Source: Bradyrhizobium ontarionense (GTDB lineage: Bacteria > Pseudomonadota > Alphaproteobacteria > Rhizobiales > Xanthobacteraceae). From it: DNA of 64,000 nucleotides. The stretch's first letter is position 1; every line of letters starts with the position of its first letter. The notes beneath the pieces are model-generated. The model was not told the DNA's origin and did not search any database. It saw only the letters and a program-made list of their open reading frames with translations. Below are positions 9,895 through 14,402 of this stretch, one piece after another. The stretch is from positions 2,108,001-2,172,000 of the forward strand of contig NZ_CP088156.1 in assembly GCF_021088345.1 (NCBI RefSeq), read 5' to 3'. The translations under genes were made by a program, and so were the position numbers.

Positions 9895-11283
9895 GTGGAG
9901 CCCTGGCTTGGCGCCGCACTCGGTTATATCAGCGATTGGCTGGCGTTTCAGGTCGAGGTCTCCGGACAGCCCGGCGGCATCCTGGCGATCGCCCATCGCG
10001 GCGAGATCGTCCTGGAGGCGGCCTTTGGGCATGCCAACCTCGACACCGGCGAGAAGCTGACGCCGCGGCATCGCTTCCGCATCGCCTCCCACACCAAGGC
10101 CTTCACCGCCGCCGGCATCATGCGCCTGCGCGAGCAGAAGCGATTGAAGCTCGACGACGCCGTCGGGCAATACGTCAAGGATCTGCATCCCGACGTCGCC
10201 ACGGCCACTCTCGGCCAGTTGCTGTCGCACACGGCGGGCCTGACCCGCGACGGCAAGGATTCCGGCCAGTTCGCCGATAGCCGATCTTATCTCGACAAGG
10301 ACGAGCTGCTGGCCGAGCTCAGGCTGCCGCCTGTGATCGATCCGAACAGCCGCTTCAAATATTCCAACCATGGCTATGGCCTGCTCGGCCTTGTCATCGA
10401 GGCGATCACCGGAGAGCCCTACCCCGTCTGGCTGCAGCGCGAGATCATCGCAGCCCTCGGCCTGCGCGAGACTGCCGCGGACATGACGCTGCTCGGCAAG
10501 GGCGTCCCGTTCGCGCGCGGCCATTCGCGCACCGTGCCGGTCGGACGCCGCGTGGTGATTCCCGGCGACAATCCAACCCACGCCATCATGGCCGCGGCCG
10601 GCGCGGTCGCGACCGCGGCGGACACCGCGCGCTTCTTCGCCCAACTCGCGCCAAACGCCAGGAAGAGCCTGCTGTCGGTCGCGAGCCGCCGCGAAATGAT
10701 CCGCAGGCAATGGCGTGTCCCGCAGGATGTCGAAGAGGTCCACTATGGTCTGGCGCTGATGAGCGGCACCACCGCCGGGTTCGACTGGTTCGGCCATGGC
10801 GGCGGCTTCCAGGGCTACATCTCGCGGACGTCGGTGATTCCGGCACGGGAGATCGCCATCACCGTGCTCACCAACGCCGTCGATGGCTGGGCCCCGGGAT
10901 GGGCCAACGGCGTCAAGTTCATCCTGCAGGCGTTTGCCACCCATGGCGCCCCGACCCGCAAGACGCGCGACTGGACCGGACGCTGGTGGACGCTGTGGGG
11001 CGCTGTCGATCTCGTGCCGTTCGGCGCGCAGGTGCTGGTCGCCAATCCGACCTTCATCAACCCTTTCCTGGACGCCTCCCGCATCGAGGTGACGGGACGC
11101 GACACCGGCCGCATCGTGCAGGCCACCGGCTATGCCAGCCACGGCGAATCCGTCCGACGCGTGCGCACCAAATCCGGCGTCAGCGAGATCTGGCTCGCCG
11201 GCGCCCGGGTGCGGCCCGAGCGGGTTGTACGGGCGGAGATGGAGCGGAAGTATCCGAAGGGCCGCCGCAGGACGCGATCGTAG
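9895..11283 (+). CDS. Serine hydrolase, class-C beta-lactamase/esterase fold
   Basis: A 462-residue protein starting at GTG 9895 with GGGAG upstream. It carries the class-C triad: SxxK in RIASHTKAFTAAG (about residue 65), YxN in FKYSNHGYGLLG (about 160), and HGGGFQGYISR near residue 302 in place of KTG. The C-terminal 100 residues are an extra beta domain. No clear signal peptide, so it is probably cytoplasmic. Family members are esterases, D-aminopeptidases or peptidases as often as beta-lactamases, so the substrate is unknown and antibiotic resistance should not be assumed. Confidence 0.88.
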   Translation: MEPWLGAALGYISDWLAFQVEVSGQPGGILAIAHRGEIVLEAAFGHANLDTGEKLTPRHRFRIASHTKAFTAAGIMRLREQKRLKLDDAVGQYVKDLHPDVATATLGQLLSHTAGLTRDGKDSGQFADSRSYLDKDELLAELRLPPVIDPNSRFKYSNHGYGLLGLVIEAITGEPYPVWLQREIIAALGLRETAADMTLLGKGVPFARGHSRTVPVGRRVVIPGDNPTHAIMAAAGAVATAADTARFFAQLAPNARKSLLSVASRREMIRRQWRVPQDVEEVHYGLALMSGTTAGFDWFGHGGGFQGYISRTSVIPAREIAITVLTNAVDGWAPGWANGVKFILQAFATHGAPTRKTRDWTGRWWTLWGAVDLVPFGAQVLVANPTFINPFLDASRIEVTGRDTGRIVQATGYASHGESVRRVRTKSGVSEIWLAGARVRPERVVRAEMERKYPKGRRRTRS

Positions 11284-11494
11284 CAGCGGTGATTGATGAA
11301 GATCCGGAGCAGGCAGCGAAGGCGAGCTCATGGTGGGCGCCAAGCGGGTGGCGACACGTCACACGAAGGTCGGTGACCCCCGCGACGTTACGTAGAGCGC
11401 TGGAGGATCGGATCGATCAAATCACAGACAAACAGACCCTGTCCCGAGCAAGACCCAGGAGAAGTTCTGCAAACGGGACAACGGTTCGGTTGAT

Positions 11495-11683
11495 TTAAAC
11501 GCCGCCAGAATACATTCGGCGTTGTAGGGGGGTGGGATGTCCCTTGGCCGGCTTTGCGCCAGCCTTTTTCTTTTCGAAGAACTTCTTGCGTGCTGCCCTT
11601 GCCTTCTCCTCGAACTCCTTCTTGAGGAGTTCCTCCTGCTTCTTTTCAGGTTGGTCGGGACCGGCGTATGTTATCTTGGGCAT
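11495..11683 (-). CDS. 62-residue Lys/Glu-rich protein beside the ADP-ribosyltransferase
   Basis: A 62-residue basic protein: MPKITYAGPDQP, then a continuous charged helix with alternating K, E, A and F (residues 13-45), then a basic tail ending RRMYSGGV. GAGG lies 5 bases before the ATG. It is 56 bases downstream of the ADP-ribosyltransferase gene on the same strand and could be co-transcribed. I do not recognise the family. Its size and place would fit an antitoxin or immunity partner, but the sequence gives no direct evidence for that. It could also be an unrelated small nucleic-acid-associated protein. Confidence 0.55.
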   Translation of the reverse strand: MPKITYAGPDQPEKKQEELLKKEFEEKARAARKKFFEKKKAGAKPAKGHPTPLQRRMYSGGV

Positions 11684-11739
11684 GGCAGCCTCGAAGTGTG
11701 TGTCAGGAATGCTTAGCGCGGCATGGATGTACGGCAGGT

Positions 11740-12348
11740 TTAAGCGGCGTGCTCCGGCGCGATGACCTCCTCCAGCTCCACAACGGCGTCATCGTTTTGA
11801 CGTTGCACCAACAGAACGCGATATTTCGTCGCCGCGTGGAATAGAATTTCGTCTTCGCTGGGCATATCGGAATATCCTCCTAAAACGCGGCCGCTTCGCG
11901 ACAGGATCGTAAAAGTCATGTTGCCGTCCAAGGCCTTGTCCTCGTCCCGGCTCGTGCTGGTAAACCCCGGCCAATCCACGATCGCACCCGCGGTATATTT
12001 CGCCAGGTCTTTCGAGAGGTCATCCGACATGTAGCCGCGATGAACGGCGCCAATGTGGACCGGCAATTTCTGCAGTGCACCATTCAAGATTCGTGCAAAC
12101 TCCCGAACCGCGGTGGACGGATGGCCGCTCCACAGCTCGCTGTTGATCTGCTGGTACCATCGGGAATGTTCGGTCGTGTAGATCCAGATTGCAAGCCGAT
12201 CGCCGGCGCTCAGACCCGCGGGATCGATGCCATCGACAAGGCGGGCGCGGGAGCAGCAATCGATATAGGTATGCCAGTTGCCCAAGAATTGGACAAAGAC
12301 ACCCTCCCGGCGCAAATCGCCATCAATTGGATGTGAAATCGCCACCAA
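11740..12348 (-). CDS. Orphan mono-ADP-ribosyltransferase (R-S-E class)
   Basis: A protein of about 202 residues that is almost entirely one ADP-ribosyltransferase domain. Helical lid: LSAGDRLAIWIYTTEHSRWY, then QQINSELW. Catalytic Arg at about 104 (AVHRGYMS), the STS motif at 131-133 (PGFTSTSRDED), and ExE at 165-167 (SEDEILF) followed by ATKYRVLLV, the usual last strand. Family knowledge: R-S-E enzymes move ADP-ribose from NAD+ to arginine or other acceptors; many are toxins or effectors. No signal peptide or delivery domain is seen. Only TTG or GTG starts are available (12348/12345). Third codon positions are much less GC-rich than in neighbours, suggesting transfer. Confidence 0.82.
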   Translation of the reverse strand: MVAISHPIDGDLRREGVFVQFLGNWHTYIDCCSRARLVDGIDPAGLSAGDRLAIWIYTTEHSRWYQQINSELWSGHPSTAVREFARILNGALQKLPVHIGAVHRGYMSDDLSKDLAKYTAGAIVDWPGFTSTSRDEDKALDGNMTFTILSRSGRVLGGYSDMPSEDEILFHAATKYRVLLVQRQNDDAVVELEEVIAPEHAA

Positions 12349-12563
12349 ATCCCCGCCCCCAGGAGCCGGATAAGATCACGGTCACAAGCTCTCTACAACC
12401 CAGGATCGTCGCGGATATCAGACCGCGCTTGCTATGATACGGCGAGTCGCCCAGCGGGACATGTGATCCTGATAACACAGCGTGTCTGAATCTGCCCGAC
12501 GGGTCGGTCGGGACCTTGCCGAAGGTTCGCAGTCCGGTGCGTTGCCCCATTGACGCCCTTCCC

Positions 12564-14135
12564 CTACTTCATCAGCGCCTCGGCCTCACCACGGAAGGCT
12601 TTGCGCGCATCGTCGCGCGAATAGAACATGTGCCCGCCCGGATAGACCACGAGCTTGACCCGCGGCGGCCGTGCGAAGGGCGGCAGCTGATCGAGCAGGA
12701 TCTTGGAGCCGTAGTAGGGCGTAGCGAGATCGAACAGGCCATGCCCGACCAGAAGCTTGAGCTTGGGATCGAGCGCGAGAATCTGCCTGAGCTCGCCGAC
12801 CGACTCCGGCGGACTGAGGCCGCGGCCGAAGTCCCAGTTCATGTTCACGGCACCGCTCAACAGCTCATAGGAGCCGTCCGGACGCCAGTTCAGCTTGCGC
12901 GTCGTCAGCTCGACCGCGGCACTGGTCAGCGGCGCGGTGAGCACGTCGCCGGAAGGGTCGGAGCTGCGCGAATGGCTCGAATCCGGATACGGATCGATCC
13001 CCAGCACCGAGCCGTCATAGCGGCCAGTGATCCGGCCGTTCTTGCGGTCGAATTCGCGGCGAAACTCGGAGACGTTGAAGCGGCCGGCCAGCCGGCGGCT
13101 GACCGCCTGGTCGATCCCGGTCAGACCAGCGACCTTGTCGGCGAGCCGGTTGGTGGCATCGGTGTCGGCCTCGCCTTTCACGAGGTCGAGCAGGAAATCG
13201 CCGCTTGCATAACGCTCGACATCACCGAGGTCGGCGCGGGTCACCGGCCCCTTCATCTGCCGGGCGACGGCTGCGAAGCTCGGCAGGCTCGCGACATATT
13301 GCATCAGGCTCGAACCCGAATAGTCGCGGAAATCCATCAGCGGCGACACCAGGATCAGGCCGTTCACGCCGATGCCCTGGTCGTGCTGGAGATTGTTCAC
13401 GATCTTCGGACCGCGAATGCCGCCATAGCTTTCGGCCGTGACGAATTTCGGCGACGCGAGGCGGTCATGCTTCTCCAGCCAGCGACGCACGACGAGCGAC
13501 AGCGAGCGCACGTCGCCATCGACCGAGAAGAAGCGCTTGCGCGCCTCGTCGCCGGTGGCGACGAAGCGGCTGTAGCCGGTGCCGACAGGGTCGATGAAAA
13601 CGAGATCGGTGAAGTCGAGCCAGGTGTCGGCATTGGGCAGCAGATCCGGCTTCGACGACGGCGTCACGCTGGCCGCATCGATCGAGATTCGCCATGGCCC
13701 GGCATTGCCGAGCTGCAGATAGGCGGACGAGGCGCCGGGACCACCATTGAAGAAGAAGGTCACGGGACGGACGGCGCGATCGGCGCCATCGAGCTGATAG
13801 GATGTGTAGGCGATGTCGGCCTGCGGCTCGCTCTTGTCGTCGAACAGGCGGATTGCGCCCGCGGCCGCCGTAAACGACAGCCTGCGGCCTGGCAATTCGA
13901 GCGTATGCGTGGTAGTGGAATCGGCAGGCAGCTTGCGCTGCTCGGCCGTCGAGGACGATCCGGGCGGGCTGGCCGACCGATTGCCGGCCGAGCCGGTGCG
14001 CTGACCTGCAGGAGCCACGCTCTCCTGCGCCGCAGGCGGGGCATCCTGCGCGCGCACGGCCTGGCCGGCGATCAGCGCCGCCAGCGCCAACGCGGCGAGG
14101 CCGGCACGCCGGTCCGATGATCTCAGAGCTGGCAT
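12564..14135 (-). CDS. Serine carboxypeptidase-like peptidase (S10 family)
   Basis: A 523-residue protein with a signal peptide (LAALALAALIAGQAVRAQ) and a Ser/Gly-rich linker, then the S10 alpha/beta-hydrolase domain: FFFNGGPGASSAYL (oxyanion region), nucleophile in TAESYGGIRGPK, Asp in GLFDLATPYYGSK, and His in PGGHMFYSRDDARKAF. Family role: release of C-terminal residues from peptides, here in the periplasm or outside. GGGAGTGAGTTG precedes the ATG at 14135. A longer upstream frame has no signal peptide and is rejected as the start. Confidence 0.9.
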   Translation of the reverse strand: MPALRSSDRRAGLAALALAALIAGQAVRAQDAPPAAQESVAPAGQRTGSAGNRSASPPGSSSTAEQRKLPADSTTTHTLELPGRRLSFTAAAGAIRLFDDKSEPQADIAYTSYQLDGADRAVRPVTFFFNGGPGASSAYLQLGNAGPWRISIDAASVTPSSKPDLLPNADTWLDFTDLVFIDPVGTGYSRFVATGDEARKRFFSVDGDVRSLSLVVRRWLEKHDRLASPKFVTAESYGGIRGPKIVNNLQHDQGIGVNGLILVSPLMDFRDYSGSSLMQYVASLPSFAAVARQMKGPVTRADLGDVERYASGDFLLDLVKGEADTDATNRLADKVAGLTGIDQAVSRRLAGRFNVSEFRREFDRKNGRITGRYDGSVLGIDPYPDSSHSRSSDPSGDVLTAPLTSAAVELTTRKLNWRPDGSYELLSGAVNMNWDFGRGLSPPESVGELRQILALDPKLKLLVGHGLFDLATPYYGSKILLDQLPPFARPPRVKLVVYPGGHMFYSRDDARKAFRGEAEALMK

Positions 14136-14402
14136 CAACTCACTCCCTGCCGCCAAGCGGGCTGGCGAAGCCATTGGCCGAAAACGTGCCATTCTGCAAC
14201 GCATGAACCGCGGCCAGGGACCAGGCTCAACCAACTCTTCCGTGATCCAGGTCACGTCCGAGCGAGTGCCTCTTCCTGCCACTTGTGGTATGGGCTCGAA
14301 CCTCGCGGCGCCGTCCGACGTCCCACAGGAGGGACATGGCCGAGCGGCCAGGGACGCGGCCAGAGACATGGGCGCCTGCCGGTTCGACCACGGAGTTCAT
14401 TC

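Follow-up and report, generated by a model that had tools for sequence, protein, structure and literature searches.

ADP-ribosyltransferase (ART) toxins and effectors are known from several bacterial settings. In the type VI secretion (T6SS) pair Tre1-Tri1 of Serratia proteamaculans, Ting et al. 2018 are said to have found that an extension of Tri1 enters the Tre1 active site, and a hydrophobic-x-x-Arg-Met segment matters for Tri1 function. The type III effectors XopAI and HopU1 of plant pathogens carry N-terminal extensions, and among the type II toxin-antitoxin (TA) systems with ART-type toxins, ParST and DarTG, ParS belongs to the DUF2384 proteins, whereas DarG is an enzyme of the macrodomain type. 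According to excerpts of PMC7827354, Tri1 protects by physical sequestration plus ADP-ribose cleavage. Excerpts of PMC13324451 describe another ART toxin, RhsF of Chromobacterium violaceum, an R-Y-E toxin carried on a T6SS Rhs protein and acting on RNA, whose immunity protein RhsFi contacts the catalytic Glu through R102 and the other site residues through W103. In the excerpted polymorphic-toxin survey the immunity given for R-S-E ARTs is Imm41 and ADP-ribosylglycohydrolase (PMC3482391), and small ORFs follow the MuF polymorphic toxins of temperate phages (excerpt of PMC5576092).

The window, a 64,000-nucleotide stretch of Bradyrhizobium ontarionense contig NZ_CP088156.1, holds an ART gene and a small partner gene (Table 1). 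The ART is an R-S-E ADP-ribosyltransferase by family, fold and catalytic residues, as the sequence-only reading had it. Profile searches match it to PF01129 (E 1.5e-11, 44.5 bits, above the curated cut-off of 22.3) and barely to PF03496 (24.0 vs 23.4), and the Arg, the S-T-S and the catalytic Glu stand in order, position 165 being E, D or S among relatives; by motif (ExE) it would be of the arginine type. Residues are numbered from the TTG start; the GTG, which gives the length of P0001, is the likelier start, (M/L)-A-I-S-H-P being the opening of many relatives. The protein has the ART fold and its nearest solved ART is Tre1, with the proviso that structural families absent from the VIA-align listing are not thereby excluded. 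HopU1 and XopAI are among its nearest relatives, and the XopAI equivalog model NF041404 gives it 35 bits, the cut-off being 300. In Pfam the 202-aa ORF is matched by ART profiles alone, with no PAAR, T6SS delivery or MuF head domain, in line with the earlier remark on a missing delivery domain. Unlike XopAI and HopU1 it has no long N-terminal extension, unlike the ART in locus L071 it is not joined to a PAAR domain, and unlike the MuF toxins (PMC5576092) and the ART relatives found in phage head proteins it has no MuF/head domain.

Table 1. Features of the ART-partner locus, in window positions
Feature	Position	Strand	Remarks
Putative ART toxin gene	11740..12348	-	202 aa from TTG; 201 aa from likelier GTG at 12345
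Catalytic Arg104 codon	12037..12039	-	invariant in A3 alignment, 14 sequences
S-T-S motif, residues 131-133	11950..11958	-	S131 invariant in A3, 14 sequences
E-D-E (ExE), residues 165-167	11848..11856	-	E167 invariant in A3
Partner (putative antitoxin) gene, 62 aa	11495..11683	-	open frame; homologues 94% and 68% identical
TPLQRRM, partner residues 51-57 (putative plug)	11513..11533	-	within identical block; predicted helix 52-58
Inserted segment with two genes	11284..12563		flank matches 26-136 bp apart in 5/11 relatives
Flanking gene, serine hydrolase (PF00144)	9895..11283	+	PF00144 E 3.8e-59
Flanking gene, serine carboxypeptidase (PF00450)	12564..14369	-	PF00450 E 1.3e-16

The ART had been read as an orphan without known partner, a description that has to be dropped because a partner gene follows it on that strand after a gap of 56 bp. 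The more similar of its homologues is annotated in a Bradyrhizobium metagenome-assembled genome, and residues 49-60 (HPTPLQRRMYSG) are identical in the window protein, P0029 and P0030. The fold model, of modest confidence (pLDDT 71.3, three-sequence input), predicts a long helix at residues 13-40 and a separate short helix over most of the motif. The 62-aa partner has no significant match in Pfam, NCBIfam or PHROGs and no recognised domain; neither a DNA-binding domain nor an ADP-ribosylhydrolase was matched by Pfam or NCBIfam. By sequence comparison it belongs to a family of small proteins in which PLQRRMxSGG is strongly conserved. The A5 profile search returned 108 such proteins at E <= 10 (70 at E <= 0.003, the rest up to E 8), and 107 of them carry the motif, which in 82 begins 10-11 residues before the C-terminus; as the A5 model itself contains the motif, this count describes the family and does not test it. 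One entry, P0117 (97 aa, from a contig of 72610 bases), which came into the list at E 0.55, has a HicB-like antitoxin domain (PF15919, E 1.6e-13) fused to LTPLQRRMISGGA.

Set against the known antidotes, the partner has no ADP-ribosylhydrolase, which Tri1 has, and its motif is C-terminal, not N-terminal as in Tri1 (PDB 6dre, 6drh). The proposed toxin-antidote layout, two adjacent genes on one strand, is that of the type II TA systems, yet the partner matches no domain, unlike ParS and DarG, and shows no DNA-binding domain, a HicB-like domain having been seen in the family member P0117. RhsFi, likened by description, is also small and inserts an Arg together with a bulky residue in the catalytic site of an ART, as the partner would, but is a six-helix protein of ~12 kDa in the excerpted account (PMC13324451). 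No small ART antitoxin of this kind is described in the excerpted literature searched, including PMC7827354, PMC13324451, PMC8262886, PMC3482391, PMC5576092 and PMC9503650.

The partner is recurrently placed after ART genes. A partner-type ORF directly follows the ART in 14 of 16 loci examined, the window and L007 included; L025 has no such ORF and L028 has a Tri1-type protein instead. In L003, L004, L018-L024, L026, L027 and L029 the small gene carries LQQRM, LQRRM, LQKRM, FVAKM, FVDKM, FVGKM, FIDKM, LMDKM or LIDKM, and the comparable ORF in L007 has FVPKM. The two genes are separated by -11 to 30 bp, the gap being larger in the window, L022 (~70 bp) and L024 (~190 bp), and in L027 and L029 the motif lies near the N-terminus rather than the C-terminus. 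Partner-type ORFs follow ARTs in apparent prophage loci too. In L023 (G369) and L026 (G333) the ART before such a gene is effector-like and has an N-terminal extension. Two loci differ: L004 (G226) has a broken ART frame and an open partner frame, and L005 (G098) a truncated ART remnant without a partner-type ORF.

A blind rule, which takes the longest of the ORFs that begin between -60 and +150 of the ART stop, scored 20 of 39 loci as carrying the strict motif [LIVMFWY]xx[KR]M, vs 40 of 706 background ORFs (binomial 3e-15), the 39 including paralogues of one genome as well as L005, L006 and L025, which as remnants or marginal cases stand outside the pairing argument. The reversed motif occurs in 6 of the 39. 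Removing array loci and ORFs above 180 aa leaves 13 of 22 (2e-11), a subset picked after the table had been seen. In L004, L022, L072 and L083 the rule took another overlapping ORF, with the motif-bearing frame also open, and in L024 the partner start lies past its reach; among the strict matches, L076 is an unrelated long ORF and L074 and L080 scored elsewhere in the protein.

Co-occurrence points the same way. Within the genus, clear ART matches occur in 3 of 265 genomes (E 2.5e-32 or better), besides a remnant in G098 and a marginal match in G126, and clear partner matches in 3 of 257 (E 4.1e-20 or better), the same three. At E <= 0.1 the partner model matches 18 genomes, 15 of them at E 0.015-0.1. 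The model, which also contains the motif, already includes the three genomes, so the informative part is the partner's absence from other genomes of the genus. The DNA pattern for RFVxKMTASGW, which is not conditioned on the ART, has three matches in all genome_contigs, each behind an ART and each with a stop after the W; since they come from genomes already seen (G399, G507, G552), they test specificity and add no new pairs. Between 26 ART homologues and 107 partner entries, five longest-contig sizes agree exactly, a number reached in none of 20000 jittered trials, which is circumstantial evidence for pairing because sizes are not contig names.

ART matches at E <= 0.001 are rare: 5 of 265 genus, 9 of 397 order and 3 of 385 class genomes, 6 of 101 relatives of G333 and 10 of 299 phylum genomes, these sets overlapping and the later ones having been searched with wider models. 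A search of viral contigs with the single sequence gave no ART of the window's type, and the alignment search gave one distant relative, L007; neither the partner P0030 nor a DNA pattern for the LTPLQRRM tail matched there, and two peptide patterns found no ART of this type in genome_contigs. Tandem repeats of an ART and a small downstream ORF occur at G1162:C4:9781-12409, G1162:C46:9384-12196 and G1069:C10:19571-21574 and are apparently orphan toxin-immunity arrays in prophages. L074 and L088 look like fusions of a head protein and an ART, 'prophage' and 'MuF' being read from the sequence with no profile result. P0023 looks like P0013 with its frame disrupted, with the same N-terminal half, a divergent stretch and the same end.

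The motif has its limits. Array partners end in YDRM, YERM, WQQM, WEQM or YDQM, and some in YERL or YARL; among partners from these arrays and fusions, which are apparently prophage-borne, Q replaces R/K in L085, L086, L087 and L088, and L replaces M in L081, L084 and L091. With L- and Q-type ends among the array partners, the motif is not universal; under the blind rule it is also absent from L075, L077, L079 and L082.

The two-gene pair is inserted between two chromosomal genes. The carboxypeptidase flank matches 13 genomes, the window's own included, and loci from 11 relatives were examined; the matched flank parts lie close together in L061, L062, L064, L067 and L068, vs ~1.3 kb apart in the window, and the remaining six have no hydrolase match within the locus. 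A second insertion site, L003 in G242 of the same genus, repeats this pattern: the flanks are 104-174 bp apart in four of eight same-genus relatives vs 984 bp, the insert is hardly more than the ART and partner genes, and in the other four relatives one flank is matched just partly or elsewhere. No recombinase was noticed in either insert, nor an integrase or IS gene in that of the window, where a repeat scan gave short or imperfect repeats only and a promoter/terminator scan of the locus came out near chance. Window DNA 11400-12560 finds, apart from itself, only matches of ~28-60 bases, in 12 of 257 genus genomes.

Base composition agrees with the sequence-only reading, which had noticed codons ending in A/T: ART GC3 is 0.680, the lowest of 45 coding-like ORFs (itself among them; mean 0.826, sd 0.047), with an overall GC of 0.573, and partner GC3 is lower still at 0.635. 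That reading's atypical island holds as regards GC3 and insertion and has to be reduced in size, a large island being discarded in favour of a segment of ~1.3 kb with two genes rather than one. Its proposal of a toxin, effector or defence enzyme gained by transfer is partly supported; defence was set aside, as PADLOC matched neither the ART nor the partner.

How might such a small protein act on the ART? Locus L071 has a PAAR-ART and, behind it, a Tri1 homologue of 366 aa (E 3.8e-151 to 6dre_A). The N-terminal extensions read SSPLVQRRM there, SRELQLRM in Serratia Tri1 and SYAVARRM in the Tri1-like protein of L028, with VQRRM, LQLRM and VARRM at residues 29-33 in all three. Alignments of other hydrolases with the L071 protein begin only near residue 63, which places the motif outside the hydrolase domain. 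The window partner has the same hydrophobic-x-x-Arg-Met segment, LQRRM. The preferred reading, with a probability of roughly two in three, is a horizontally acquired toxin-antidote module. The first gene would encode a cytosolic R-S-E ADP-ribosyltransferase without any delivery part, and the second a small protein with a predicted helix and the conserved C-terminal tail TPLQRRMYSGG. The tail would enter the NAD/substrate cleft and neutralise the enzyme, its Arg-Met taking the place held in Tre1 by the Tri1 extension, and the module would work as a stand-alone toxin-antitoxin cassette or as an orphan pair of effector and immunity protein; the target may be a bacterial protein, by analogy with Tre1, FtsZ being one candidate. 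Toxicity, co-expression, binding, neutralisation, tail pose and cellular target are thus steps that we infer.

Could the ART instead be secreted into a eukaryotic host or another cell, with the small protein as its chaperone or adaptor? HopU1 and XopAI are near relatives, and the effector-like ART of L026 is flanked by two CesT chaperone genes, with the small gene placed between it and the second of them. With two CesT chaperones present, however, that small gene is hardly a chaperone; the window ART is short and unextended, and at its locus no neighbouring secretion genes were noticed, so secretion is an improbable account. A domesticated, DraT-like regulatory ART, for which the partner would be substrate or regulator and the tail Arg/Lys the ADP-ribosylated site, would fit both the conserved Arg or Lys and the pairs in L020, L021, L022 and L024, whose seemingly similar chromosomal neighbourhood suggests long residence there. 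It is nonetheless unlikely, given the patchy presence in the genus, the two separate chromosomal sites that are empty of the pair in relatives, and the recurrence of the motif in the immunity proteins that go with Tre1-type toxins.

A five-residue pattern found in ~6% of background ORFs may also arise by coincidence beside an unrelated neighbour. That the association appears in four ways (genus co-occurrence, blind rule, RFVxKMTASGW pattern and shared longest-contig sizes), together with the conserved family tail, makes this very improbable. The toxin-antidote module is the reading kept here. Its extension, that R-S-E ART toxins across bacteria are inhibited through a common short element, hydrophobic-x-x-Arg/Lys-Met, is put forward tentatively, at slightly below an even chance: the element would recur in Tri1, in partners of putative type III effectors, in apparent prophage arrays and in a large, unnamed solitary-antitoxin family, as the plug alone here and shuffled elsewhere onto antitoxin domains like HicB.

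In this soil bacterium the products of the gene pair are probably an ADP-ribosylating toxin and its antidote of 62 residues; the conserved tail of the antidote is similar to the part with which much larger known antidotes block related toxins. If so, a small and mostly nameless antidote, identifiable by a tail of ~10 residues, would accompany many of the ART genes that annotations list as orphan toxins or effectors, and ART inhibition by a minimal peptide would be directly testable from that tail. The tail would also help to separate self-toxic from host-directed ARTs, and would link T6SS immunity to solitary toxin-antitoxin modules.
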